Positions 4,877 through 48,270 of a stretch of 64,000 nucleotides of DNA are shown piece by piece. Numbering within the stretch: the stretch's first letter is position 1; each line of letters begins with the position of its first letter. The notes beneath the pieces are model-generated. The model had not been told where the DNA came from, ran no database searches, and saw nothing but the letters and a program-made list of their open reading frames with translations. The stretch lies in the NCBI RefSeq assembly GCF_012844345.1, contig NZ_CP051625.1, forward strand, positions 868,001 through 932,000, given 5' to 3'. This DNA comes from Pseudomonas sp. gcc21. GTDB lineage: Bacteria > Pseudomonadota > Gammaproteobacteria > Pseudomonadales > Pseudomonadaceae. The position numbers and the translations under genes are program-made.

Positions 4877-5062
4877 TCAGCTGGCTGGCGCGGCTTCGAT
4901 GTCAGCCTTGATGCGGTCGTACACTTCCTCGCGGTGAACCGGCACGTCGCGCGGTGCGTCGATTGCCAGCCGTACCTGTTGCCCGGCGACGCCGGTAACG
5001 GTGATGCGTACGTCATCGCCGACGAGGATGGTTTCGCCAATGCGGCGGGTGAGTATCAACAT
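4877..5062 (-). CDS. csrA: Phage-encoded CsrA/RsmA-family RNA-binding regulator
   Basis: The 61-residue protein begins [18 protein letters not shown] and ends in [16 protein letters not shown]4, R6 and R44, the RNA-contacting residues known from CsrA/RsmA dimers, are all present. CsrA proteins bind GGA hairpins in 5' leaders and repress or stabilise mRNAs. A prophage copy could retune host carbon storage, motility or biofilm genes, or regulate phage mRNAs. An AAAGG lies 6-7 bases before the ATG at 5062. It follows a small membrane-peptide gene by 10 bases. Identification is firm; target is unknown. It diverges from typical host RsmA at the C-terminus and around residues 19-36. Confidence 0.93.
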
Positions 5063-5072
5063 GGGGATTCCT

Positions 5073-5231
5073 TTAAAAGATGAAGACGGGGGCTGATGGA
5101 TCCTTGCCCGCCGCTCTGACGACGGTGGTATTGCGTGGCCTGGCTGGTCGACGGGCCATGGTGGAGCGGTCAAGCTCGCCGGCGACCAGGCACAGCACGA
5201 TTGCGAGAAGGATTGCTTCGAACGTTTTCAT
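5073..5231 (-). CDS. Small membrane peptide (52 aa)
   Basis: ATG at 5231 is preceded by AAGGAAGAG at 4-5 bases, a good ribosome site. The peptide begins [20 protein letters not shown], one hydrophobic helix, followed by a basic tail rich in Arg ([11 protein letters not shown]). It ends 10 bases before the csrA start, so the two are likely co-translated. The function is unknown; single-helix peptides of this kind are frequent in Pseudomonas phage early operons. Confidence 0.55.
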
Positions 5232-6882: not shown

Positions 6883-6911
6883 AGATTACCGTGAGGTAAT
6901 ACATTGGTCAA
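6883..6911 (-). promoter_or_regulatory. Leftward early promoter (PL-like)
   Basis: On the minus strand TTGACC (complement of 6906-6911) and TAATCT (complement of 6883-6888) are separated by 17 bases. One operator dyad overlaps each end (6885-6900 and 6910-6925), so the repressor would block both elements. It would drive the leftward operon starting at 6620. The -10 is a poor match to consensus; the operator overlap is the stronger argument. Confidence 0.6.
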
Positions 6912-6925
6912 TACCAATAGGTAAT
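6885..6925. promoter_or_regulatory. Operator cluster OL (two 16-bp dyads)
   Basis: Two dyads of form ATTACC-N4-GGTAAT are seen: 6885-6900 (ATTACCGTGAGGTAAT, perfect arms) and 6910-6925 (AATACCAATAGGTAAT, one mismatch), with starts 25 bases apart. The same dyad occurs beside the repressor gene at 10753-10792, about 3.9 kb away. Paired distant operators are the lambda OL/OR arrangement, which allows repressor-mediated looping. They are inferred to be repressor sites from this pairing and from overlap with promoters. Confidence 0.8.
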
Positions 6926-7034: not shown

Positions 7035-7385
7035 ATGGATATCACACGGATGTTGCGTTACGGCCGTTTTTTGCTCCCGCCATTTATGGCTTTTCTCGCT
7101 GGCCTGGTGGTCATGGCCTGGGCTCAGCGCGGGCTGCAACAGTTCAGCCCTTACCTGGGACTGTCTGATCCGCTTACGCTGGTTTCCATATTCGCTGGCG
7201 CAGGGGTATCCATAGCAGGCGGCGGGTTGTTTGCCTGGAATGTGTACAGGTTGTATCGCCGGCATGCGGCCTTACGCGATGGGGAGTGCCTGAGCTGTCA
7301 TGGTGATATGCGTAGGCGAGATGGGTGGTACGGGGCGTATCGGGTATGTGACTTCTGTGGGGCAAAGCGGGAAGGGTGGAGGTAG
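7035..7385 (+). CDS. Membrane protein with C-terminal zinc ribbon
   Basis: The 116-residue product has two hydrophobic helices (FMAFLAGLVVMAWAQ and LVSIFAGAGVSIAGGGLFAW), a basic linker, and a C-terminal CLSCHGDMRRRDG...YRVCDFCGAKREG zinc-ribbon pair. It lies rightward between OL and the cassette, inside the immunity region, and has AGGG just before the ATG. A possible -10 TAGAAT is at 7002-7007. The gene is separate from early operons and may be expressed in the lysogen. Family not recognised. Confidence 0.68.
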   Translation: MDITRMLRYGRFLLPPFMAFLAGLVVMAWAQRGLQQFSPYLGLSDPLTLVSIFAGAGVSIAGGGLFAWNVYRLYRRHAALRDGECLSCHGDMRRRDGWYGAYRVCDFCGAKREGWR

Positions 7386-7538: not shown

Positions 7539-8753
7539 CTAGGCGTAATACAGATACGCGGTACCTATGAGAGCGGGAATCCAGGCGAGTATCTGCAGTG
7601 CGGCCAATGTCCACTGTAATCGACACTCGTCCACTTTAAGGAATGTTTTCATTTTTTCAATGGAGACGCGCAAATCTTCAGGATACGAATCAGTCTTTCC
7701 GTCTATGGAATCAATGACGATATTTTTCGCTTGCTTGATGAGACTGAAATGCCGACGCTGATTATGGACAATTCCGCTGATGACAAGAGAAGCAAACGTT
7801 AGACCTAGAACCAGAAATATGCTTTCAAGCAAGTCATCAGACTTGGATAAGGCTATGAGTGCTGCGAAAGATACAGGGATTGCCAGCAATTTCCCTGTTA
7901 TATCTCCAAGGATCTTTGAGTATTGTGATGCGATGTCAAATTCCGCTTCTGCGACCTCTCTCTTGGCTTTGTGAAATGCAAAGCCACTGAAGTATGTATT
8001 AAGGTTAGCCTGGAATAGTTCGGAGAATTTAGTCCATCCAGAAAGAAGCCTTTTAAAGCTATCTTCTTTTGCGCTGGGTCCGCCCAGAAACTCTGATACG
8101 GTTGCATAAAAGACGCCCCTGCGGCTCGCATAGTGCGGATCCGATTCAGGTGCCGCCTGGGCTAGTTGCTCAAGAAGAGTAATGTCAATGTCGCGGCATA
8201 TCGAAATGATCTCTTCTGAAACCACGGTATTGATAAGTAACGGCTTTATTGATTGCGCGGAACCGGCATCGACGAATACGAGCTGAAGACAACCTGTCTC
8301 GCTCTTGCTGTCATGATAATGTGCAACCTTGGCGAGAAGGGAAACAGCTTTGCAGGCGGTGGAAATAGCCTCAACGGCCCAATGGGGTTCTATGTCTTCC
8401 GAATAGGCATCCAGTCCCACGATATAGTATTGAGATGGGCAGACGCCGCGAGAAATCTCTGAGCCGGAGGCGAGCAATGCGGTCAAGTTTTGGTGAAAGG
8501 TGGACAAACTCTGAGAGTGCGTGTGAATCCGAAAGGATATCTCGCAACCCTGGGAAGGGGCGTCTTCCATATAATCTGTGTCGACCGACACACCATCTAC
8601 CGTGAGATGATCAACTACTGCACTGCCACTGGTCGCGATTTCATCAATCATTCGCAGCCCGTTCTCGAAAGGAATAACCCCTGAAACGATACCTTCTTCG
8701 AAGGAAATTTTATGGCTTATTCTATAGAGTTGGACCAGCGAGCTTATATTCAT
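7539..8753 (-). CDS. Uncharacterised three-helix membrane protein of immunity-region cassette
   Basis: The 404-residue protein has a soluble N-terminal region (about 1-285) and three hydrophobic helices near the C-terminus: about 289-303 (LAIPVSFAALIAL), 310-328 (SIFLVLGLTFASLVISGIV) and 383-402 (LAALQILAWIPALIGTAYL). A short loop of about 50 residues lies between helices 2 and 3. No catalytic motif or known domain is recognised. It starts only 5 bases after the stop of the NdpA-like gene and has no good ribosome site, so it is probably translationally coupled. Base composition is more AT-rich than the phage structural genes. Position downstream of the repressor matches lambda rexB; a role in phage exclusion is inference only. 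Confidence 0.75.
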   Translation of the reverse strand: MNISSLVQLYRISHKISFEEGIVSGVIPFENGLRMIDEIATSGSAVVDHLTVDGVSVDTDYMEDAPSQGCEISFRIHTHSQSLSTFHQNLTALLASGSEISRGVCPSQYYIVGLDAYSEDIEPHWAVEAISTACKAVSLLAKVAHYHDSKSETGCLQLVFVDAGSAQSIKPLLINTVVSEEIISICRDIDITLLEQLAQAAPESDPHYASRRGVFYATVSEFLGGPSAKEDSFKRLLSGWTKFSELFQANLNTYFSGFAFHKAKREVAEAEFDIASQYSKILGDITGKLLAIPVSFAALIALSKSDDLLESIFLVLGLTFASLVISGIVHNQRRHFSLIKQAKNIVIDSIDGKTDSYPEDLRVSIEKMKTFLKVDECRLQWTLAALQILAWIPALIGTAYLYYA

Positions 8754-8758
8754 TCGTG

Positions 8759-9865
8759 CTAGCTACCAAGTTTGAGCTGAGCCTGTATTTCTGACAGCAG
8801 CTCTTCAGGAAGGTTCTTTAGTGTGATGGTTTGACTTTTACTGTTGTAGTATACGGTAGCGGCATCGCTTTTACCAAGCGCCATACGGTCGAATTCGAGG
8901 TTCCAGTTCTTTGTTTTCCCTTTGATATGTGTATTCTTCTTTAGCTCGCCAGCATGGACTGGGAACTCAACTGGAACGCCAATGTCCTCGCTATTAAGAT
9001 GTTTGGTCAGTTCTTCGACAATGGTCTCTGCTTGTTCCAAATATTTCGTCGGAATGCTCTTTCGGACAATTTCTCCAATGTCTGAAAGTCTTGCTGACTT
9101 CTCGTCTGCTTTCTGTTGGGAAAGATAATCCGTTAGCTCTTGTCTCAGTCTTTTAGTGTTTACTTTCCAGTCTGCTCGTTCGGTAAACCATTTCTCTGTC
9201 TCAGTTAGGACCCGCTTGGTGGCTTGAGAAGACGTAGATCCTTTCGAGCACCCGATTGCTGAGATAAAATAGCCGGAAGTGCCTTTGGATGAGCTCGGAC
9301 TGATGAAGCTGAGATAGTTTATCGATTGTTTTTGTTCTTCGCTCGCGCTTAAAAAAGCAGCGTATTTCGCTATGTTGATTTTTGCAGCTGAGGATATTCT
9401 ATCGAGCTCAAGCCGATCGAGTTCCTCAGGCTCAAGGTTCGGGCTTATGGTGATGCCAGGTGTTTTCTTGATCATTACCACGAGCAGAAAGCGCTCAGCA
9501 GCAATCACGTAATCAGCAAACATGAAATAACCGCCGGTTGACGCTGTGGCGATTTCTGCCAGGCGATACAGCTCACCCATAGCTATCTTACTAAGAGCGA
9601 TAAAATCGCCATCGCCTTGGGAGCTGTTGATGTAGGTTTTGTAGCCATCTGGAAACGGACCTCTATCATGGGTCGTCTTAAACGTCCCGTAATGAGCGCC
9701 GTTCATGCGGGTTCCATAGACCTTCGTCACGCCTTCAACTAATTTTTTAACCGTAGCATTTTGGCTGTTTAGCACGGTTTCTCGGATGTGTCTTTTGGAT
9801 ATGGACTTGTGCTGTTCTTTTACGATTTCGTGCACGATGACACGCGAGATGGCGATCTCTGCCAT
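8759..9865 (-). CDS. NdpA/YejK-like nucleoid-associated protein
   Basis: The 368-residue product resembles the 37-kDa nucleoid-associated protein family (YejK/NdpA). Matching features in order are an N-terminal IAISRVIVHEIVKEQHKS, DFIALSKIAMGELYRLAEIA, GGYFMFADYVIAAERFLLVVMI, NLEPEELDRLELDRISSAAKI, YLSFISPSSSKGTSGYFISA and the ending ATVYYNSKSQTITLKNLPEEL. YejK proteins bind DNA and co-purify with the nucleoid and topoisomerase IV. AAGGAAGGATCC just before the ATG is a good ribosome site. It is the first gene of a two-gene unit placed after the phage repressor on the same strand. The family match is by pattern memory; phage role is unknown. Confidence 0.78.
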   Translation of the reverse strand: MAEIAISRVIVHEIVKEQHKSISKRHIRETVLNSQNATVKKLVEGVTKVYGTRMNGAHYGTFKTTHDRGPFPDGYKTYINSSQGDGDFIALSKIAMGELYRLAEIATASTGGYFMFADYVIAAERFLLVVMIKKTPGITISPNLEPEELDRLELDRISSAAKINIAKYAAFLSASEEQKQSINYLSFISPSSSKGTSGYFISAIGCSKGSTSSQATKRVLTETEKWFTERADWKVNTKRLRQELTDYLSQQKADEKSARLSDIGEIVRKSIPTKYLEQAETIVEELTKHLNSEDIGVPVEFPVHAGELKKNTHIKGKTKNWNLEFDRMALGKSDAATVYYNSKSQTITLKNLPEELLSEIQAQLKLGS

Positions 9866-9898: not shown

Positions 9899-9957
9899 TT
9901 ATAAGTTACGAGCATTCCAAGCCAGCAGCATGCGCCCTAGTAGACACGTGCATAGAT
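9899..9957 (-). pseudogene. Remnant of a second repressor 3' end
   Basis: On the minus strand, codons ending at TAA 9899-9901 read R-M-L-L-A-W-N-A-R-N-L-stop. The intact repressor next to it ends R-V-L-L-V-W-N-A-K-K-L-stop. Eleven codons align without gaps, and differences are synonymous or conservative. Just upstream (9940-9957) another frame reads I-Y-A-R-V, matching V-H-A-R-V in the repressor, so a short insertion or frameshift separates the two pieces. It looks like the decayed C-terminus of a related repressor left by recombination when the neighbouring cassette was exchanged. Confidence 0.75.
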
Positions 9958-9965
9958 AGCCAGCT

Positions 9966-10739
9966 TCAAAGTTTTTTTGCGTTCCAAACCAGCAACACCC
10001 GTGCGTGTACCGTCACATCTGAGATGTTGATCACCTGATCCTTGTGCCGGGGGTTGTCGCTGATCATGTCGAAGTGGGTGGGGGAGTGCTTCTGCAGGCG
10101 TTTGACGTAGAGCAGGTTGTCCCAGGTCAGGACATAGATACCGTCACCAATGAACTGGTTGACGCCGCGGTCAACTATCAGCGGGTCGCCGTCGTTGATG
10201 GTGCCTTCCATGCTTTGGCCGAAGCCAGTGATGATGGCCAGATTATCGGCCTTGCTGAATGAGATGCCGCGCCCGGACAACAGAGACTCATGAACCGTCA
10301 CGTGCCGGATTGTCTCGATGTAGTCCGCAGGTATCTGGCCGTGGCCCAGGGCGCCGCGCACGTTGTACTGAGGGATGGATATCTCCCCGTCCTTGAGCTT
10401 GCCCTTGCTGGAGAAATCAGCAGCGATCACGTTGCTCTCCTTGTCTTTATTATTTTCTGGTTTTTTTATGTCTGCCGACGCGGCTATAGGGCGATCCAAG
10501 GCATAACAATCTAGCCCGAATGCCTTTTCAATCTCTCGCGCAAAATCCTCTCCGATCGTTTTCGACCCTGCGCGCTCAGGGGCCGCCAAGCAGCGGGAGA
10601 TAAAATTCTGTGGCTTTCCAAGTCTCTCCGCCAGGCGCGACTGCGCCCCACGAACTCCATTGAATTCGCGATCCATTAGCGACTTGAGGTTGCGTCTGCG
10701 CACTTCGCGTATGTCCATGTCTGAATAATCCATTTCCAT
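9966..10739 (-). CDS. CI-like S24 family phage repressor
   Basis: The 257-residue protein has an N-terminal HTH (about 12-60, with QSRLAERLGKPQNFISRCL), a linker of about 60 residues, and a C-terminal LexA/S24 peptidase-type domain. Catalytic Ser176 is in GFGQSMEGT and Lys213 in LLYVKRLQ. The usual Ala-Gly cleavage dipeptide is not obvious; GALGHGQ near residue 130 is the likely hinge. It maintains lysogeny by binding the dyads at 10753-10792 and 6885-6925 and is probably removed by RecA-stimulated self-cleavage. No good ribosome site precedes ATG 10739 (another ATG is at 10733), so a leaderless maintenance transcript, as for lambda cI, is possible. Confidence 0.92.
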   Translation of the reverse strand: MEMDYSDMDIREVRRRNLKSLMDREFNGVRGAQSRLAERLGKPQNFISRCLAAPERAGSKTIGEDFAREIEKAFGLDCYALDRPIAASADIKKPENNKDKESNVIAADFSSKGKLKDGEISIPQYNVRGALGHGQIPADYIETIRHVTVHESLLSGRGISFSKADNLAIITGFGQSMEGTINDGDPLIVDRGVNQFIGDGIYVLTWDNLLYVKRLQKHSPTHFDMISDNPRHKDQVINISDVTVHARVLLVWNAKKL

Positions 10740-10752
10740 TACTAGAAGGTAA

Positions 10753-10818
10753 ATGACCGGATGGTATTGATTTGTGATTACCGGACGGTAATAATGCTGG
10801 GCAATACCACCGGAGGTT
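10753..10818. promoter_or_regulatory. Operator cluster OR
   Basis: Two 16-bp dyads lie between the divergent repressor and Cro-like genes: 10753-10768 (ATGACCGGATGGTATT, imperfect) and 10777-10792 (ATTACCGGACGGTAAT, perfect arms). Starts are 24 bases apart. A left half-site AATACC at 10803-10808 lies another 26 bases on, next to the ribosome site of the Cro-like gene. They share the ATTACC-N4-GGTAAT form with OL, and cover the PR promoter. Binding by the S24 repressor and the Cro-like protein is inferred. Confidence 0.82.
10767..10795 (+). promoter_or_regulatory. Rightward early promoter (PR-like)
   Basis: TTGATT (10767-10772) and AATAAT (10790-10795) are 17 bases apart. The perfect operator 10777-10792 fills the spacer and touches the -10. 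It would drive the Cro-like gene 27 bases downstream and the replication operon beyond. Confidence 0.68.
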
Positions 10819-10821
10819 CAT

Positions 10822-11052
10822 ATGGGAATCCGACATAACGATCTGCTCGATTGGGTCAAGACGGCCACGGACGAGCAGGTTATCGCTACAGGTACCTCTC
10901 GCGGCTACCTGCGCCAGATCGGCTATGGGAACAAGGCTGCGTCCGCCGCAACTGCGGCTCGCATTGAGGTCGCGACCAATCGCCTTGTTACCCGCCAAGA
11001 GCTTCGCCCGAACGACTGGATGGTCGTCTGGCCTGAGCTGGCGGCTGCTTGA
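10822..11052 (+). CDS. YdaS/Cro-like DNA-binding protein
   Basis: The 76-residue protein is a small HTH of the YdaS (Cro-like) type: NDLLDWVKTATDEQVIATG, then SRGYLRQIGYGNKAASAATA and a RIEVATNRLVTRQELRP segment ending in W. It has the pattern of YdaS proteins in which helix 2-3 contacts DNA and the C-terminal arm follows. GGAGG at 10812-10816 is 5 bases before the ATG. It is first after PR and divergent from the repressor, so it most likely acts as Cro, lowering repressor transcription during lytic entry. Confidence 0.85.
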   Translation: MGIRHNDLLDWVKTATDEQVIATGTSRGYLRQIGYGNKAASAATAARIEVATNRLVTRQELRPNDWMVVWPELAAA

Positions 11053-11233: not shown

Positions 11234-11264
11234 CGATACAGCAGTAGCAATGAGGAAAGATTAT

Positions 11265-11978
11265 ATGAATACCATGATCAAGGCAACACACGACAGGGCG
11301 TCACGCAGTAGCATCACACTAAGCAGCAGCGAAATAGCTGGCCTGGTTGGAAAGCGGCACGACAATGTGAAGCGCACCATCGAAACACTGGCGGAGCAGG
11401 GCGTTATCACTTTTCCTCAGATTGAGGAAAAGCCCTCAACAGGCGGCAGGCCGTCGAGCCACTACCTGTTCACCGGTGACCAGGGCAAGCGCGACAGTAT
11501 CGTTGTTGTCGCCCAACTATCCCCCGAGTTCACAGCGCGTCTCGTTGACCGCTGGCAAGAGCTGGAAGCCAATCAGCTCCGCATCCCCCAAACCCTACCC
11601 GAAGCATTGCGCTTGGCTGCCGATCTGGCTGATGAGGTCACGTCACTACGCCTCGTCACACAAGAGCAGGCGCCGAAGATTGCCGCACTGAACCGTCTGG
11701 CCACTGCCCGGGGCACGCTGTGCATGACTGACGCGGCCAAGCACCTCGGCGTACAGCGCAAGGTGTTGTTGGAGTGGATGCAGGTGAACCGCTGGATCTA
11801 TCGCCGTGAAGGCTGCGCGCATTGGCTGGGTTATCAGCCGCGGCTGGCTGCTGGATTGCTCGAGCACAAGGTAACGGTCTTGGGCAGTGACGAAGGGTTA
11901 CAACGGCTTGCGTCACAGGTTCGCGTCACACCTAAAGGGCTGGCTGAGTTGGCGCTGAAAGTGGGAGGGCTGAGCTGA
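11265..11978 (+). CDS. Rha-type phage regulatory protein with KilA-C-like C-terminus
   Basis: ATG at 11265 is preferred over 11250 because AGGAAAG lies 5 bases before it. The N-terminal domain (about residues 15-95) carries LSSSEIAGLVGKRHDNVKRTI, STGGRPSSHYLFTGDQGKRDS and VAQLSPEFTARLVDRWQELE, the Rha signature. The C-terminal half has TLCMTDAAKHLGVQRKVLLEWM, WIYRREG and TPKGLAELA, the antirepressor KilAC pattern. Rha interferes with growth of temperate phage in some hosts and is regulated during development; this family usually acts as an early regulator or antirepressor. Its stop overlaps the next start (TGATG). Confidence 0.82.
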   Translation: MNTMIKATHDRASRSSITLSSSEIAGLVGKRHDNVKRTIETLAEQGVITFPQIEEKPSTGGRPSSHYLFTGDQGKRDSIVVVAQLSPEFTARLVDRWQELEANQLRIPQTLPEALRLAADLADEVTSLRLVTQEQAPKIAALNRLATARGTLCMTDAAKHLGVQRKVLLEWMQVNRWIYRREGCAHWLGYQPRLAAGLLEHKVTVLGSDEGLQRLASQVRVTPKGLAELALKVGGLS

Positions 11979-12727
11979 TGGCCGGCGAATGGATAAAGAT
12001 GCGCACGAACCTGTGGAATGACCCCCGTGTGTCGCGCCTGTGCGATATGACGGACCAGCCGGAGGCGATGGTAGTGGGTGGCCTGTACTGGCTGTGGGCG
12101 ATGGCTGACGAGCATTCAGAGGATGGCTTTTTGTCTGAGCTGACAGTGCGCGCCATTGACCGCAAAACCGGCGTGACCGGGCTTGGCCAAGCGCTGATTG
12201 ATATCGGCTGGATGATCAAGGCAGAAGGCGGTTTGCGTGTCGTAAACTTCGATGAACACAACGGTGCGTCCGCAAAACGGCGCAGCATGGACGCAAAGCG
12301 TAAGTCATGTGTCCGCAAAGTGTCCGCAAGCGATGCGGACAAAAAGCGGACACCTACCGGAGCTAGAGTTAGAACTAGAACTAAAGAAGATTTAAACCCC
12401 CCTCACACTCCGCATGCGACGCCTGACGATCTGCCAGCCGGTGTGATCGCCATGCACCTGGAGTGGCAACCCGACCCGAAGACCCTGGCGGCCTACGCCA
12501 AACGCGCCGGGCTGGATATCACCCTGTTCACCCCTGATGCCATCGGCCCGTTCGTGGTGCACCACAGCGCGAAGGCGACGGTGAAGCCCGAGACGGAGTT
12601 TGTGAGTGCGCTGATCAACTGGATCAAGCGCGACCAGGTGCAGGGTGCTCGTGTGGTGCCGCTGCGGGCCAGACAGGCCAATGGGGCGAACTTCGATGAC
12701 ACCGCCACCGGCTGGCTGGGAGAGTGA
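11978..12727 (+). CDS. Phage replication protein with DnaT-like DNA-binding C-terminus
   Basis: The N-terminal part (EWIKMRTNLWNDPRVSRLC, GLYWLWAMADEH, GLGQALIDIGWM) is a winged-helix domain typical of phage replication initiators. A basic, low-complexity linker follows. The C-terminal residues about 157-230 (LEWQPDPKTLAAYAKRAGLD, FVVHHSAK, EFVSALINWIKRDQV) match the DnaT DNA-binding domain found in primosome proteins. It is thus the likely lambda O or DnaT analogue that loads the host helicase together with the next gene product. An origin is not recognised inside it. Confidence 0.75.
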   Translation: MAGEWIKMRTNLWNDPRVSRLCDMTDQPEAMVVGGLYWLWAMADEHSEDGFLSELTVRAIDRKTGVTGLGQALIDIGWMIKAEGGLRVVNFDEHNGASAKRRSMDAKRKSCVRKVSASDADKKRTPTGARVRTRTKEDLNPPHTPHATPDDLPAGVIAMHLEWQPDPKTLAAYAKRAGLDITLFTPDAIGPFVVHHSAKATVKPETEFVSALINWIKRDQVQGARVVPLRARQANGANFDDTATGWLGE

Positions 12728-12729
12728 CC

Positions 12730-13416
12730 ATGAAAACCGTTAACCAACTGATTCCATCCGCCGGCAAGTTGCTTGCGTCGCCTGCTGCTCCCGCCGCGCC
12801 GGTGAAGGCCAAGGAACTGCCACCCGAGGTCAAGCGTGCCACCGAGAAGCTGATCAACGATCTGTTCGCCCGTCTGCGCTCGATCTATCCGGCGTGGAAG
12901 CAGGCGTGGAACAGCGAGGAGCTGTACCGGCTGACCAAGGCGGAGTGGACCCAGGCGCTGCTGGATGCGGGCATCACCGAGTGGGCGATGATCGAGCGCG
13001 GGCTGTCCCGCTGCCGACAGGAGCCGGGTGATTTCATTCCATCGGTGGGCAAGTTCATCGAGCGCTGCTGGCCAACCGCTGCGGAGCTGGGTGCGCCTGA
13101 TGCCGAGACGGCGTACTGGGAGGCGCAGCGCAACAGCCACCCGTCTGTGGCGGGGCATGAGCGCTGGAGCCATGTGGCGGTATTCCATGCGGCGATCCAG
13201 TGCAGCCGGCACAGCCTGCTGACCCTGCCTGCCGAGGTGGGGCGTTTGAAGTTTGCGGCCGCTTACGCCGAGGTGCTCAAGCGCGTGGCGCAGGGTGAGC
13301 AGCTGGCCGAACCGGCGCCGGCGTTGCCGCGTGATGTGCACCGCAAGGGCGACCCTGCCACCGCGAGGGCTGCACTGGCTGGGTTGCGTAATTCACTGAC
13401 TGGGGCGTGCGCGTGA
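12730..13416 (+). CDS. Phage replication protein P-like (helicase loader)
   Basis: ATG 12730 with GGGAG 8 bases upstream is preferred over GTG 12724. The 228-residue protein has KRATEKLINDLFARLRSIYPAW, then W..A....GI....I..GL..CR (AGITEWAMIERGLSRCRQ) and PGDFIPSVGKFIERCWP. This is the pattern of replication protein P family members, which load DnaB helicase at the phage origin. It follows the DnaT-like gene with a few bases overlap, the O-P order of lambda. Function is inferred from family and order. Confidence 0.8.
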   Translation: MKTVNQLIPSAGKLLASPAAPAAPVKAKELPPEVKRATEKLINDLFARLRSIYPAWKQAWNSEELYRLTKAEWTQALLDAGITEWAMIERGLSRCRQEPGDFIPSVGKFIERCWPTAAELGAPDAETAYWEAQRNSHPSVAGHERWSHVAVFHAAIQCSRHSLLTLPAEVGRLKFAAAYAEVLKRVAQGEQLAEPAPALPRDVHRKGDPATARAALAGLRNSLTGACA

Positions 13417-40344: not shown

Positions 40345-40811
40345 TCCCCGGCAGCTTGTACCCTTGGCTGGGATCTTAACAGTCTGGGTGTGATGAGCTA
40401 TATGAACGGTGACAAGTTCGGAGTCCACAGCCCGCACAAACCAGCTCCCCTCTTTGAAAAAGTGGGGCTAGGGGAGATTTCGAGTTCAAGCTATTCACGC
40501 CAGCTAAGGCGCCGCGTGAACATCATAGGTCCATGCAGCCCGGCTTCCCTGACACAGCGATTAAGTTATTGATTCCATTGTGATAGAGTACCGCCTTTCC
40601 GGTGCTTCGCGCGTTGTTGATTCCCTTTGAAATCAGAGAGTTGCAGTTTCGAAGCATTGATAAAATCCCCCTTTGCGTCATTCGGCGCGTCCATGCAGCA
40701 ACCCCAAGGTTGCCGGCGATCGTTTGCCGGAGGAACTGCATCAGGCGAAGTCGGTTGGCAATTATCATCATGTGGCCTTGCGTAGGGGCCACCACTGAGA
40801 AGGAACGGCAC
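40345..40811 (+). other. thrS upstream region
   Basis: About 470 bases without a clear gene. Several short frames exist but none has coding character. The IHF-consensus site at 40562-40574 lies about 240 bases before the thrS ATG. A promoter cannot be assigned with certainty. No T-box or tRNA-like operator is obvious. Confidence 0.5.
40562..40574. promoter_or_regulatory. IHF-consensus site upstream of the thrS-ihfA operon
   Basis: TAAGTTATTGATT is identical to the site at 39641-39653 and matches WATCAANNNNTTR (reverse complement) at all fixed positions. The operon downstream encodes the IHF alpha subunit, so it could be an autoregulatory site. Binding is inferred only from sequence. Confidence 0.5.
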
Positions 40812-42737
40812 ATGCCTGTTATTACTCTTCCCGACGGCAGTCAGCGCAGCTTTGATCACCCGGTTTCGGTTGCCGAGGTCGCTCAATCCATTGGTGCCGG
40901 TCTTGCCAAGGCCACACTGGCTGGCAAGATCGACGGCCGCCTGGTCGACGCCTGTGACCTCATCGAGCAGGACGCTTCTCTCGAGATCATTACGCCGAAA
41001 AACGAGGAAGGGCTGGAGATCATTCGCCACTCCTGTGCTCACCTTGTGGGGCATGCGGTCAAGCAGTTGTATCCGACCGCCAGGATGGTCATCGGTCCGG
41101 TCATCGATGAAGGCTTTTATTACGATATTGCCTTCGAGCGTCCTTTTACGCCTGAGGATATGGCGGCGATCGAAACGCGGATGCGCGAGCTGATCAATAC
41201 CGAATACGACGTCATCAAAAAGGTTACGCCGCGCGACCAGGTGATTGAAGTGTTCGAGTCCCGCGGGGAGGAGTACAAGCTGCGTCTGGTTGAGGACATG
41301 CCGGACGAGCAGGCGATGGGTCTGTACTACCACGAAGAATATGTCGACATGTGCCGCGGTCCGCACGTACCCAATACGCGCTTTCTGAAAGCTTTCAAGT
41401 TGACGCGTATTTCTGGCGCCTACTGGCGCGGTGACGCCAAGAACGAACAGCTCCAGCGTATTTACGGCACTGCCTGGGCAGACAAGAAGCAGCTTGCGGC
41501 CTATATCCAGAGAATGGAAGAAGCCGAAAAACGCGACCATCGCAAGATCGGCAAGCGTCTGGGCTTGTTCCATACCCAGGAAGAAGCACCGGGCATGGTG
41601 TTTTGGCACCCGAATGGCTGGACTGTTTATCAGGTCCTTGAGCAGTACATGCGACAGGTACAGCGTGGGGCTTCCTATAAGGAAATCCGCACGCCGCAAG
41701 TGGTTGACCGCGTCCTCTGGGAGCGCTCCGGTCACTGGGAACATTACTCGGCGGCGATGTTTACCACTGAGTCCGAAAGTCGCGACTACGCGATCAAGCC
41801 GATGAACTGCCCGTGCCATATCCAGGTCTTCAATCAGGGCCTGAAAAGCTACCGCGAGCTGCCATTACGCCTTGCAGAATTTGGCTCCTGTCACCGTAAC
41901 GAGCCTTCGGGTTCGCTACACGGCCTGATGCGCGTGCGTGGTTTTACCCAGGATGACGCTCACATCTTCTGTACCGATGAGCAGGTGAAAGCCGAAGCCG
42001 CTGACTTCATCGCGCTGACACTCCAGGTGTACCGCGACTTCGGTTTCGATGATGTCGAGCTGAAGCTGTCTACCCGCCCGGAAAGCCGTGTCGGTGATGA
42101 TGCGCTGTGGGATCAGGCTGAAAAAGGCCTGGAAGATGCCTTGAACGAAGCAGGTCTGGACTGGGAGCTGCAGCCAGGCGAGGGCGCGTTCTACGGTCCG
42201 AAGATCGAATTCTCCCTGCGTGATTGCATCGGCCGTGTCTGGCAGTGCGGTACCTTGCAGCTTGATTTCATGCTTCCGGGCCGGCTGGGCGCGCAGTATG
42301 TAGCTGAAGATGGCTCGCGCAAAACGCCGGTCATGTTGCACCGTGCAATTCTGGGTTCTTTCGAGCGTTTTATCGGCATTCTCATTGAACATTACGCAGG
42401 CGATTTTCCGGCATGGCTGGCTCCGACTCAGGCTGCGGTTCTGAATATCACCGATAATCAGGCTGAATTCTGCTCCGAAGTGGAGAAAAAGCTGAATGAA
42501 ATGGGATATCGGGCCGTAGCGGACTTGAGAAACGAGAAGATCGGCTTTAAAATCCGGGAGCATACTTTGCACAAGACTCCTTACCTGCTGGTAGTAGGCG
42601 ATAGGGAAGTCGAATCGCACACTGTGGCCGTGCGCACGCGGGAGGGTAAAGATCTGGGTTCCATGACTGTTGCCGAGTTCTCCGAGTTCCTGTCCCGTGC
42701 CGTTGCACAGCGAGGCCGCCCGAATTCGGAGCTATAA
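40812..42737 (+). CDS. thrS: Threonyl-tRNA synthetase
   Basis: ATG 40812 is preceded by AAGGAA (40800-40804) and gives 641 residues, the normal ThrRS length. The upstream in-frame extension (from 40602) lacks coding character. The N-terminal TGS domain ([15 protein letters not shown]), the editing domain with [16 protein letters not shown], the class II core (motif 2 around [20 protein letters not shown], listed here as [10 protein letters not shown] and HGLMRVRGF; motif 3 [20 protein letters not shown]) and an anticodon-binding domain are clear. It charges tRNA-Thr. First gene of the translation operon; infC follows 2 bases after its stop. Confidence 0.98.
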
Positions 42738-42739
42738 AG

Positions 42740-43285
42740 ATTAAACGCGAGATGAGACAAGACAAAAGAGCCGCACAACGCCCGCCGATCAACGAAAACA
42801 TCACGGCGCGCGAAGTGCGCCTGATTGGCGCAGAAGGTGAACAAATCGGTATCGTGTCCATTCAGGAAGCCATGGCCGCCGCAGAGGAGGTCAAGCTCGA
42901 CCTGGTTGAAATCTCCCCCGACGCAGAGCCGCCAGTTTGTCGACTCATGGATTACGGCAAGCACATCTTTGAGAAGAAGAAACAGCAGGCTGTTGCACGG
43001 AAGAATCAGAAGCAGATTCAGATCAAAGAAATCAAATTTCGTCCAGGGACGGAAGAGGGAGACTATAAGGTCAAGTTGAAAAACCTGATACGTTTCCTGA
43101 GTGACGGGGATAAAGCCAAGGTTTCATTGCGATTCCGCGGCCGCGAAATGGCCCATCAGGAGCTGGGGATGGAACTGTTGAAACGGGTCGAACAGGACCT
43201 GCTTGAATACGGTACCGTCGAACAGCACCCGAAAATGGAAGGTCGTCAGCTGATGATGGTCATCGCTCCCAAGAAGAAAAAGTAA
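42740..43285 (+). CDS. infC: Translation initiation factor IF-3, predicted AUU start
   Basis: Reading from ATT at 42740 gives 181 residues (start residue, then [20 protein letters not shown]). GGAG (42728-42731) sits 8 bases before ATT, while the ATG at 42752 lacks a ribosome site. The AUU start is the known IF-3 autoregulation device in E. coli, and an upstream KREMR is conserved in Pseudomonas IF-3. Domains: N-terminal NEN..ARE..LIG, linker [11 protein letters not shown]-terminal [12 protein letters not shown]-3 prevents subunit joining and selects the start codon. Only 2 bases from thrS, so likely coupled. Confidence 0.9.
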
Positions 43286-43347
43286 TCTCCAGGGCAACGC
43301 CAGGCCTTGCGATTATCTTTATTAACGCTCTAAGCGGAGAAACGAAC

Positions 43348-43542
43348 ATGGCAAAGATGAAAACCAAAAGTGGTGCTGCGAAGCGCTTCAAGAAGACCGG
43401 AAGCGGCCTCAAGCACAAGCACGCATTCAAGAGCCACATCCTGACCAAGATGAGCACGAAGCGTAAGCGTCAGCTGCGTGGCACATCTCAGCTCAACGCT
43501 GCTGATGTCCAGAAAGTTGAACGCATGTTGCGTCTCCGTTAA
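43348..43542 (+). CDS. rpmI: 50S ribosomal protein L35
   Basis: The 64-residue, very basic protein has [20 protein letters not shown] and [20 protein letters not shown], the L35 signature. It binds 23S rRNA. It follows infC by 62 bases and precedes rplT by 24; in other bacteria L20 represses this pair by binding the leader. Confidence 0.97.
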
Positions 43543-43566
43543 GTCTAAGGTTAGAGGATCTAAAGA

Positions 43567-43923
43567 ATGGCTCGTGTTAAGCGTGGTGTAATGGCGCGTA
43601 AGCGTCACAAGAAAATTCTGAAACTCGCCAAAGGCTACTACGGTGCGCGTTCACGCGTATTCCGTGTTGCCAAGCAGGCGGTCATCAAGGCTGGTCAGTA
43701 TGCCTATCGTGACCGCAAGCAGCGCAAGCGTCAGTTTCGTGCTCTGTGGATTGCCCGTATCAATGCCGGCGCTCGTCAGAATGGCATGTCCTATAGCCGT
43801 CTGATTGCTGGCCTGAAGAAGGCTTCCGTAGAAATCGACCGCAAGGTTCTGGCCGATCTGGCTGTGAACGAAAAAGCGGCGTTTACCGCGATTGTCGAAA
43901 AAGCAAAGGCTAGCCTGGCTTAA
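43567..43923 (+). CDS. rplT: 50S ribosomal protein L20
   Basis: The 118-residue basic protein has [40 protein letters not shown] and [20 protein letters not shown], typical of L20. It is an early assembly protein of the large subunit and translational regulator of infC-rpmI-rplT. A strong terminator follows at 43975. Confidence 0.98.
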
Positions 43924-43941
43924 GCCCTCGTTACGACAATC

Positions 43942-43960
43942 ACCGGAGCCTGGCTCCGGT
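43942..43960 (+). repeat. Hairpin after rplT
   Basis: ACCGGAGC pairs with GCTCCGGT around a 4-base or 3-base loop. It has no T-run and lies just before the strong terminator. Confidence 0.55.
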
Positions 43961-43974
43961 TGGCAACGTCATTA

Positions 43975-44011
43975 ATAGGGGAAGAGCCTCATCGCTCTTC
44001 CCCTATTTTTG
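43975..44011 (+). terminator. Terminator or attenuator before pheS
   Basis: ATAGGGGAAGAGC (43975-43987) pairs perfectly with GCTCTTCCCCTAT (43994-44006), a 6-base loop and TTTTTG. It lies 16 bases before pheS. In E. coli pheST has an attenuator with a Phe-rich leader peptide; no such peptide is seen here, so it may simply lower pheST transcription from upstream. Confidence 0.85.
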
Positions 44012-44027
44012 TTTCTGGAGTGTGTGA

Positions 44028-45032
<1,005 letters not shown>

Positions 45033-45070
45033 TAGCCGCCACCCAAACTCTTTGAAAGCAGGAATAGATA

Positions 45071-47452
45071 ATGAAATTCAGTGAACAGTGGTTGCGTACC
45101 TGGGTTAATCCGCAGGTTAGCCGCGACGAACTGGTAGCCCGCCTGTCGATGGCCGGGCTTGAAGTCGACAGCGTAACGCCAGCCGCCGGCGAATTCAGCG
45201 GTGTTGTGGTGGGCGAGATCATCAGCGCCGAACAGCATCCGGACGCCGATAAGCTGCGTGTGTGCAGCGTTAGCAGCGGCAATGAGCAGTTCCAGGTGGT
45301 GTGCGGTGCGCCCAACGCGCGCCCCGGCATCAAGATTCCGTTCGCCATGGTCGGCGCCAAACTGGGTGTAGACTTCAAGATCAAAAAGGCCAAGCTGCGT
45401 GGCGTCGAATCCCACGGCATGCTCTGTTCTGCGGCTGAACTGAATCTGTCCGATGATCACGATGGATTGTACGAACTGCCCGCTGACGCAACGGTCGGCC
45501 AGGACCTGCGCGAATATCTGGGGTTGGACGACGCGATTATCGAAGTCGATTTGACACCGAACCGCGGTGATTGCCTGTCCATTGCAGGTTTGGCTCGTGA
45601 AGTTGCCGCCAACTATGGCGAGCAGGTGAGCCGCCCGCAGGTCGAAGCGATCGCCCCTGTACACGACGAAACCCGCCCCGTAGAGCTGCTCGCAAGCGAG
45701 GCATGCCCGCGCTATCTGGGCCGCGTAGTGCGCAATGTCGACCTGTCGCGTCCGAGCCCGTTATGGATGGTTGAGCGTCTGCGTCGCAGCGACATTCGCA
45801 GCATCGATGCAGTCGTGGATATCACCAACTATGTCATGCTCGAGCTGGGCCAGCCGCTGCATGCCTTCGACCTGGCAGAAATTCGCGGCGGCATCCGGGT
45901 TCGCATGGCAGATGAGGGCGAGAAGCTTGTGCTGCTCGACGGCCAGGAGATTGCACTGCGCGCCGACACGCTGGTTATCGCTGACCACGAACGGCCACTG
46001 GCTATGGCCGGCATCATGGGTGGTGAGCACAGCGGCGTCGGTGAGACAACCACTGATCTATTCCTTGAAAGTGCGTTCTTCGACACCATCGCTATCGCCG
46101 GCAAGGCACGCGGGTATGGTCTGCATACCGATTCATCGCATCGTTTCGAACGCGGCGTTGACTGGCGCTTGCAGCGTGAAGCCATCGAGCGCGCCACCGC
46201 GTTGATCCTTGAGATTGTCGGCGGTGAGCCGGGTCCGATTGTCGAAGCCGTAAATGAAAATGCCCTGCCCAAGCTCAGCCAGATCACACTGCGCAATGAA
46301 CGCATCACGCAGATGCTGGGTATGGAGCTGCCTGCGGACGATGTCGAGTCCTACCTGGGTGGTCTGGGTCTCGGCGTCAAAGCCAGCGGAACCGGTGAGT
46401 GGCAGGTTGACGTCCCCAGTTATCGCTTCGATATCTCGATCGAGGTTGATCTGATCGAAGAGCTGGCGCGCCTGTACGGCTATAACCGTTTGCCTGCTAC
46501 CGCACCCACTGCCTCACTGAACCTGGCAGCCAAGTCGGAATCCAGAGGCGAGCTGCCAGCGTTGCGTCGTCTGCTGGTCGCGCGCGGCTATCACGAAGCC
46601 ATCACTTACAGCTTCATCGAGCCGGGCCTGAACAAGCTGTTTGACCCTGAGATTGAACCTCTTGCGCTGGCCAACCCGATTTCGGCTGATATGGCAGTAA
46701 TGCGTACATCGCTGTGGCCAGGCCTTTGCAAAGCTGTGGAATACAACCTCAACCGTCAGCAGTCGCGCGTGCGTCTGTTTGAAAGTGGTCAACGCTTCCT
46801 GCCCCAGACCGATGGTTCACTGTTACAGCAGCCAGTGCTTGCCGGTATCGCCTGTGGCGCTCGGCAGCCTGAAGGCTGGGCCAACGGTAATGACAAACTG
46901 GATTTTCATGACGTCAAAGGTGATGTCGAGTCGATTCTGGGACAGGGCGGCTGCGGTTCGGCCTTTCGATTCGAGCCAGCGGAGCATCCAGCTTTGCACC
47001 CGGGTCAGACTGCGAAGATTACCCGTGATGGCCAAACGGTCGGTTGGCTGGGTGCTCTGCATCCATTGTTGGTTGATGAGCTTGATCTGCACGCCCCGGT
47101 CTTTGTCTTCGAACTGGAGCTCGCCGGTATCAGCGAAGGACGTTTGCCGGTCTTCGCCGAGCTATCGCGCTTTCCAGAGGTGCGCCGGGATATTGCACTG
47201 CTGGTCGATAAGGCTGTGGCGGCGGATGATTTGCTCAACAGGATCCGCGAAGTGGCCGGTCAGCACCTGAAAAACCTCAGACTGTTTGACGTTTACGAAG
47301 GTAAGGGCATTGATCCTCATAGCAAAAGCCTGGCCATTGGCTTGACGTTACAACATTCATCGCGCACTCTTACCGATGATGAGGTGAACGCTGTCATGGA
47401 CGAGGTGCTCGAGTCCCTGGAGCAAGGAATCAACGCCACACTAAGGAAATAG
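45071..47452 (+). CDS. pheT: Phenylalanyl-tRNA synthetase beta subunit
   Basis: The 793-residue protein starts MKFSEQWLRTWVNPQVSRDE and has the tRNA-binding domain (VVVGEIISAEQHPDADKLRV, QVVCGAPNARPGIKIPFAMV), the B3/B4 editing domain, catalytic-like domain (YHEAITYSFIEP, LANPISADMAVMRTSLWPGL) and the C-terminal FDX-ACB domain (ELSRFPEVRRDIALLVDKAV). Length is standard. It ends 3 bases before ihfA, the usual gamma-proteobacterial order. Confidence 0.98.
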   Translation: MKFSEQWLRTWVNPQVSRDELVARLSMAGLEVDSVTPAAGEFSGVVVGEIISAEQHPDADKLRVCSVSSGNEQFQVVCGAPNARPGIKIPFAMVGAKLGVDFKIKKAKLRGVESHGMLCSAAELNLSDDHDGLYELPADATVGQDLREYLGLDDAIIEVDLTPNRGDCLSIAGLAREVAANYGEQVSRPQVEAIAPVHDETRPVELLASEACPRYLGRVVRNVDLSRPSPLWMVERLRRSDIRSIDAVVDITNYVMLELGQPLHAFDLAEIRGGIRVRMADEGEKLVLLDGQEIALRADTLVIADHERPLAMAGIMGGEHSGVGETTTDLFLESAFFDTIAIAGKARGYGLHTDSSHRFERGVDWRLQREAIERATALILEIVGGEPGPIVEAVNENALPKLSQITLRNERITQMLGMELPADDVESYLGGLGLGVKASGTGEWQVDVPSYRFDISIEVDLIEELARLYGYNRLPATAPTASLNLAAKSESRGELPALRRLLVARGYHEAITYSFIEPGLNKLFDPEIEPLALANPISADMAVMRTSLWPGLCKAVEYNLNRQQSRVRLFESGQRFLPQTDGSLLQQPVLAGIACGARQPEGWANGNDKLDFHDVKGDVESILGQGGCGSAFRFEPAEHPALHPGQTAKITRDGQTVGWLGALHPLLVDELDLHAPVFVFELELAGISEGRLPVFAELSRFPEVRRDIALLVDKAVAADDLLNRIREVAGQHLKNLRLFDVYEGKGIDPHSKSLAIGLTLQHSSRTLTDDEVNAVMDEVLESLEQGINATLRK

Positions 47453-47455
47453 CCT

Positions 47456-47758
47456 ATGACGGCTCTGACAAAAGCGGAAATGGCAGAACGTCTTCACGAA
47501 GAACTTGGCTTCAACAAGCGTGAAGCCAAGGAACTGGTGGAGCTGTTTTTCGAAGAGATTCGCAACGCTCTTGAGAGCAACGAGCAGGTCAAACTGTCCG
47601 GATTCGGTAATTTTGACCTGCGCGACAAGCGTCAGAGACCTGGGCGAAACCCGAAAACAGGTGAAGAGATTCCTATAACTGCCCGTCGTGTGGTGACTTT
47701 TCGCCCGGGGCAAAAACTCAAGGCCCGAGTAGAAGCTTATGCTGGAACCCAGCCATAA
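47456..47758 (+). CDS. ihfA: Integration host factor alpha subunit
   Basis: The 100-residue protein has [60 protein letters not shown] and [13 protein letters not shown], the DNA-wrapping beta-arm with Pro-intercalation region ([10 protein letters not shown]) included. IHF bends DNA at WATCAANNNNTTR sites; one such site lies in the leader of this operon and another in the prophage arm. It overlaps the MerR-type gene by 20 bases. Confidence 0.98.
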
Positions 47759-48098
47759 CCAGGAACTGCCAGCCATACCTGGTAAACGCTACTTCACCAT
47801 TGGCGAAGTGAGCGAGCTTTGCGAAGTCAAACCGCACGTACTGCGGTACTGGGAACAGGAATTTCCGCAGCTCTCTCCGGTCAAGCGTCGGGGTAACCGT
47901 CGTTATTACCAGCGGCAGGACGTTCTGATGATTCGACAGATCCGTGCTTTGCTGTACGACCAGGGCTTCACTATCGGCGGCGCCCGCCAGCGCCTGTCCG
48001 GTGAAGAGGCCAAGGAAGACGTCACGCACTACAAGCAACTCATCCGCCAGACGATTTCAGAACTGGAAGAGGTGCTGCAGGTGCTCAAGACGCCGTAA
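47739..48098 (+). CDS. MerR-family transcriptional regulator
   Basis: The 119-residue product has [40 protein letters not shown] and [20 protein letters not shown], an N-terminal MerR winged-helix, then a coiled dimerisation helix. No metal-binding cysteines are visible in the short C-terminus. A regulator of this type always follows ihfA in Pseudomonas; its target is unknown. Confidence 0.93.
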
Positions 48099-48107
48099 CA
48101 TCGGTGG

Positions 48108-48146
48108 CTACCTGAAGATGAAAAAAACCTTTCTCATTTCAGGTAG
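48108..48146 (+). repeat. Long-loop inverted repeat between merR-type gene and tRNA-Pro
   Basis: CTACCTGAA (48108-48116) pairs with TTCAGGTAG (48138-48146) over a 21-base A/T-rich loop including seven A's. It could be a terminator of the operon on the leading strand or a regulator site overlapping the tRNA promoter region. Confidence 0.5.
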
Positions 48147-48152
48147 TTATTG

Positions 48153-48158
48153 TATGAT
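48153..48158 (+). promoter_or_regulatory. Possible -10 of tRNA-Pro promoter
   Basis: TATGAT is followed by GCGACCCGC, a GC-rich discriminator typical of stringently controlled stable RNA promoters. The -35 is weak (TTTCTC at 17 bases). A leader hairpin CTTCGAC/GTCGAAG (48167-48187) precedes the tRNA. Confidence 0.5.
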
Positions 48159-48192
48159 GCGACCCGCTTCGACAGACAACGTCGAAGCATCG

Positions 48193-48270
<78 letters not shown>

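Follow-up and report, generated by a model that had tools for sequence, protein, structure and literature searches.

What does a pair of genes lodged directly behind the repressor of a prophage do for the cell that carries it? We asked this of a 64,000-nucleotide stretch of the Pseudomonas sp. gcc21 genome (contig NZ_CP051625.1, positions 868,001 to 932,000 of the forward strand; below 'the window', in whose own numbering coordinates are given), where two adjacent genes lie on the minus strand between an S24/CI-like repressor and the left operator (OL) of a prophage. Gene A (8759-9865, 368 residues) encodes a protein of the NA37/YejK family (NdpA-like) and is the probable DNA-binding component. 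Gene B (7539-8753, 404 residues), separated from gene A by 5 bases, encodes an N-terminal soluble domain followed by three C-terminal membrane helices.

The pair is probably an anti-phage operon of two genes, encoded by the prophage and belonging to the DS-1 superfamily; as a swappable cassette in the interval from repressor to OL, it would serve the lysogen. This reading draws on the kinship of both genes with the DS1 families, on a gene order conserved among relatives and on what related prophages carry at the same place. We further infer that the pair is expressed in the lysogen and protects it.

Gene A is a divergent NA37 protein and gene B has three membrane helices

Gene A passes the cut-off of Pfam family NA37 (PF04245; E = 8.2e-50, 170.5 bits against a cut-off of 24.6), and its predicted structure has the YejK fold; two further Pfam matches fell below their cut-offs. 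Against the equivalog model of housekeeping YejK (NF001557), it scored 135.5 bits where 341 are demanded. The host's core YejK/NdpA, encoded elsewhere in the genome (G000:C1:3557224-3558177; locus L002), exceeds that threshold at 410 bits. The two proteins share their Pfam family, but the core gene has no gene B neighbour and clusters with stand-alone phage copies, whereas gene A is paired. In the passages of PMC10053502 and PMC10561277 that treat it, YejK binds double-stranded DNA and acts on gyrase and topoisomerase IV.

Gene B has no Pfam family and matches phrog_5023 in PHROGs (E = 9.5e-45). Three membrane helices, at about residues 285-303, 311-329 and 383-401, are supported both by mean hydropathy across an alignment of 87 rows and by a confident predicted model (pLDDT 91.7). 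An initial annotation, made from the sequence of the window, had likewise counted three helices in this protein; its further description as a membrane protein of no known family gives way to membership of phrog_5023 and a distant relationship to NF053869. Between the second and third transmembrane helices (TM2 and TM3), a 52-residue stretch holds ten lysines and arginines, while the loop of 7 residues that joins TM1 to TM2 holds one. Conservation is highest at residues 241-304 (0.69-0.72, against 0.40-0.55 elsewhere).

Both genes are related to DS-1

NCBIfam release 20.0 (June 2026) contains two families named for an anti-phage role: NF053868 (DS1_1, 'nucleoid-associated anti-phage protein') and NF053869 (DS1_2, 'anti-phage protein'). 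Gene A matches the former (E = 1.7e-24, 86.5 bits) and gene B matches the latter over residues 67-351 (E = 1.7e-23, 83.4 bits). Since both scores are below the curated equivalog cut-offs (330 and 315 bits, respectively), of which they reach about a quarter, we call the pair DS-1-like rather than DS-1. The match of gene A must also be read with the qualification that the host core YejK itself matches DS1_1 at 90 bits. For gene B, a profile of its relatives that contained no locus above the DS1_2 cut-off nonetheless recovered the three loci that do exceed it (L046-L048; E = 5.4e-33 to 9.9e-38), each with an NA37 gene upstream.

In DS-1, the NA37/YejK gene comes first and the DS1_2-type gene second, as in the window, and both proteins are homologous to those of the window pair. 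The difference is one of distance: the pair has about 16-18% identity to the above-cut-off loci and forms a separate deep branch in both of the trees that we built. These trees comprised 47 rows for B and 51 for A; one near-copy (L010) was excluded, as were pairs in which a protein did not meet the length limits. In the B tree the window protein is one of 19 rows that make up a well-supported branch (100/99); DS-1 proper occupies another deep branch. We conclude that the pair and DS-1 belong to one superfamily, in which the window pair occupies a deep branch apart from DS-1 proper.

We presume these NCBIfam families to be the DS-1 of the DefensePredictor paper (PMC13092281), whose sections 5, 7 and 15 give no account of DS-1 or of how it works. 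In that paper, protection of E. coli MG1655 is reported for 42 of 94 cloned units, and the YejK nucleoid-associated domain is among the domains newly validated in defence. The earlier view that no named system has such a pairing is therefore superseded, as NCBIfam names one and the passages of PMC13092281 list a YejK defence domain.

The two genes are kept together across phages, plasmids and chromosomes

Among the 13 B loci from the genome_contigs and viral_contigs searches, an NA37 gene lies directly upstream on the same strand in every case. With broader profiles run on phages, plasmids, E. coli and whole genomes, the same is true of 51 of 54 non-self B loci; this is beyond chance, and it answers favourably the search for the pair in other genomes and prophages that the initial annotation had suggested as a check. 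The three exceptions are a locus at a contig edge (L026), a plasmid stretch with transposases (L044) and a plasmid locus at the end of its record (L045). These 54 loci were found mostly through B or DS1_2 queries, two of them (L040 and L041) through A, and near-copies (such as L009/L010 and L025/L065) were left uncollapsed. The NA37 profile was trained on alignment A2 together with L002, L018, L019, L021, L023, L024, L025 and L030; L007, L010, L017, L022, L040, L041, L043 and L046-L068 lay outside its training set. The identities of A and B are strongly correlated over 48 pairs (r = 0.93), a value that none of 2000 permutations reached.

Gaps between the two genes run from -44 to +15 bases, with one exception of 365 (L018, where the B match has an internal stop). 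Such a tight two-gene order, with ends that overlap or nearly do so, would also suit a toxin-antitoxin-like addiction pair that stabilises the prophage and protects against phages as a by-product. We consider this very improbable, as the genes are large for the purpose, at about 370 and 400 residues, and toxin or antitoxin families are absent among the library matches of the pair.

The pair occurs in Alcaligenes, Halomonadaceae, Desulfomicrobium, Pseudoalteromonas, Enterovibrio and Psychromonas, as well as in Klebsiella phage P7641, one P. putida plasmid and one Xanthomonas plasmid. Direct tblastn searches with B found 2 of 50,697 phage records and 4 of 72,556 plasmid records. DS1_2 matches were present in 26 of 295 genomes of one other family, three of them above the cut-off and each of these with an NA37-B pair, and in 10 of 398 genomes across the phylum, none above the cut-off. 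Closer to the window, no relative of gene B was found in 36 other genomes of the genus or in 21 of the order, so that the window's own genome is the one carrier among 58. The closest database proteins have 67% identity to B (P0002) and 69% to A (P0084), and are probably one gene pair. The Klebsiella-phage pair has DNA matches in 39 of 5,426 complete E. coli genomes, none over 80% of the query length; the matches listed cover 69% of the query at 66.6% identity. The one copy of these 39 that we inspected (L030; proteins WP_120130707.1 and WP_046657265.1) lies in a prophage, beside the antiterminator gene Q. Two highly diverged NA37-B pairs are found in Sinorhizobium phage phi2LM21 (L041:628-2806), with B annotated as hypothetical, and in Klebsiella phage Kp4865-4 (L040:2480-4679), whose record is unannotated.

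NA37 genes also occur alone. NA37 matches were detected in 20 phage records, and of the seven that we inspected, four had the pair and three had no B. Among those without a B neighbour are phage F116, where the gene lies among DNA-metabolism genes, and phage PseuP_222. These solitary genes speak for a regulatory reading of the pair, in which A would be a nucleoid-type regulator of prophage or host genes, B an accessory membrane protein, and the function not defence. There is a precedent in NdpA2, whose role as a regulator, exerted with TprA on the integrative and conjugative element PAPI-1, is documented (PMC8565334). Nevertheless, A and B are kept together across phages, plasmids and chromosomes, their relatives are named anti-phage, and the four stand-alone NA37s examined fall in a separate clade: in the A tree, the host core YejK and the F116, PseuP_222 and L042 proteins form one clade with full support (100/100), which sits among paired branches under the root used for drawing. 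For these reasons we regard the regulatory reading as unlikely.

The interval between repressor and OL holds varied cargo

The position of the pair was established from the repressor and its operators. The repressor gene (9966-10739, minus strand; PF00717, E = 1.8e-19; phrog_4, E = 8.7e-34) shares its strand with the pair and lies upstream of it. The operator word TTACCGNNNGGTAAT, with up to two mismatches, occurs 17 times in the window, where shuffled sequences average 2.0, and exact sites are confined to 6886-6900 and 10777-10792, each within a small cluster. The OL-like cluster (6885-6925) contains one exact site plus near matches. The cluster resembling a right operator (10738-10792), between the repressor and a cro-like gene, contains exact matches on both strands at 10777-10792, again with near matches. 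Because these clusters with exact sites bracket the region, the pair is placed between the repressor and OL. Coordinates of the open reading frames (ORFs) and operator clusters thus uphold the arrangement first described for this locus, namely a pair on the repressor strand, in the position of lambda rexAB, with a 5-base gap. It was also correctly seen to be richer in A and T than the phage core: the G+C content of the pair is 0.46-0.47, compared with 0.616 at 11250-13400, 0.545 in the repressor and 0.585 in the whole window.

We then asked what relatives carry at this place, which we call the slot. A relative of the repressor is present in 7 of 37 genomes of the genus, the window's own included. 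Five of the other six were inspected (L077-L081, from genomes G028, G021, G012, G008 and G036); the relative in G031 was left out, and L082, where G028 has a further and distant repressor at the edge of a contig, was inspected but not counted. Ten slot ORFs from the five loci were run against Pfam and PADLOC. In four of the five, defence- or restriction-like genes replace the NA37 pair. One slot (L077) encodes a PD-Lambda-5_A-like protein (E = 2.8e-15, N-terminal part) and a second gene without a match, and another (L078) encodes PDC-M63A (3.4e-34) and PDC-M63B (2.1e-57). A third (L079) holds genes for a C5 methyltransferase, a PDC-S15/FRG protein and a GmrSD_N/NsnA-like protein, and a fourth (L080) has an HSDR_N protein (Pfam 3.7e-12, with a weak PADLOC match). 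The L081 slot gave no defence match in Pfam or PADLOC. L078 also has the exact operator word both before its repressor match and after its slot, at the point where DNA like that of the window's OL begins. Left-arm DNA is common to the window and L078-L080, while L077 and L081 have the repressor alone in common with it. Together with the DS1 kinship, this cargo makes it likely that the initially proposed role in defence or exclusion is right as far as an anti-phage function is concerned; the roles that it assigned to the two proteins are a separate matter (see below).

Between repressor and gene A, at 9899-9934 on the minus strand, the final 11 codons and stop of the repressor are present a second time in diverged form. 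This copy reads RMLLAWNARNL-stop, compared with RVLLVWNAKKL-stop at the repressor's own end (7 of 11 identical, BLOSUM score 41). The next best among 2,409 stop-ended 11-mers in the window scored 14, and none of 17,957 stop-ended 11-mers from other loci scored as high as 41. Repressors of the same genus end alike, in LLAWNARKL (L080) and LLAWNAKRL (L078). This scar probably records a cassette exchange at the 3' end of the repressor gene. On the simplest reading, the cassette would have come from the same slot of another phage and brought with it the 3' end of that phage's repressor gene, one of the same family.

Comparable settings exist elsewhere. When ten ORFs from L004-L006 and L013-L016 were run against PHROGs for repressor-type neighbours, the pair was found after a CI-type repressor in another genus, Salinicola (L006), and on a viral contig (L014), in the latter with another possible ORF between. 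At other cargo sites, Septu PtuA lies within a few kilobases of the L012 pair and an RTasSbcB-like gene near the L011 pair; these were two of ten flanking ORFs run through PADLOC. With defence- or restriction-like genes in four of the five slots inspected in the genus, the repressor-OL interval may be a defence hotspot of these phages.

Kiwa and RexAB as models for the mechanism

Two known systems offer models for how the pair might act. Lambda RexAB consists of two genes, one of which encodes a membrane protein, and the window pair occupies the equivalent place between repressor and OL, on the equivalent strand. It differs in its proteins, A being NA37 and B phrog_5023, and among the library matches of the pair there is no family named for RexA or RexB, models of which the searched libraries hold. 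In a RexAB-like abortive infection, A would sense the DNA of the phage or an intermediate of its replication, while B would form a pore that depolarises or kills the infected cell. The rexAB position, the presence of a membrane component and the DNA-binding family of A all speak for this, and we regard it as possible but rather doubtful.

Kiwa, as described in a passage of PMC12904381, also combines a membrane protein with a DNA-binding protein, encoded side by side as in the window, and its logic of sensor and effector is opposite to a RexAB-type assignment. The initial annotation had made the NdpA-like protein the sensor and the membrane protein the effector; these roles were carried over from RexAB, and with Kiwa described the other way round in that passage we do not retain them. 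Instead, we tentatively favour a Kiwa-like, membrane-tethered block on DNA. By analogy, B would have its anchor in the inner membrane and almost its whole mass on the cytosolic side, and would hold A at the membrane. A, as a DNA-binding protein of YejK fold, would bind incoming or replicating phage DNA or act on a phage topoisomerase; the effect, like that of KwaB in Kiwa, would be a stop to the replication or late transcription of the phage. The conserved helix of B before and in TM1 (about residues 241-304) would be the coupling part. Sequence profiles show no kinship to KwaB, as KwaB (PF16162) was not matched in the Pfam scan of the pair and hhalign gave NA37 and KwaB a probability of 0.2%; the resemblance of gene A to the KwaB fold is within noise.

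A broader and more doubtful idea is that pairs of NA37 and membrane proteins, in the window's branch, in DS-1 and in those that lie between, arrived at the Kiwa principle a second time and independently, from housekeeping YejK. A scaffold in the membrane would fix a nucleoid-type DNA-binding protein where phage DNA enters, and so smother that DNA without cutting it. In this lambdoid phage group, the repressor-OL interval would be a dedicated defence slot whose cassettes are swapped by recombination at the 3' end of the repressor gene, with the remnant repressor tail as a trace of such a swap.

Surrounding prophage

Divergent from the repressor, a small YdaS/cro-like regulator is encoded at 10822-11052 on the plus strand (phrog_35, E = 8.8e-10; PF15943, 23.7 bits, below the cut-off of 30). 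At the OL end of the slot, outside the pair, a plus-strand ORF of 116 residues resembling a small membrane protein (7035-7385) has no strong family in Pfam or PHROGs; L078 and L079 likewise have short opposite-strand ORFs with predicted TM segments after their slot genes. The left arm contains a CsrA/RsmA-family gene (4877-5173, minus strand; PF02599, E = 2.6e-24). A phage integrase (PF00589; 13481-14767, plus strand) lies to the right of the repressor and early genes, away from the prophage end. The host genome seems to restart within 40602-48270, where pheT (45071-47452) and a tRNA-Pro gene (48194-48270) are found, and where thrS, infC, rplT, pheS and ihfA are guessed from the order of ORFs. 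With host genes from 40602 onward, the right end of the prophage should be near 40.5 kb.

Implications

Housekeeping nucleoid proteins are rarely regarded as immune effectors. YejK-plus-membrane pairs form a large and diverse superfamily in phages, plasmids and chromosomes, of which DS-1 is the sole branch that we found named, and sections 5, 7 and 15 of PMC13092281 do not describe a mechanism for it. Thanks to the related E. coli pair, the mechanism can be studied in laboratory strains of that species, and the slot behind the repressor could lead to more defence cassettes in prophages of this group.
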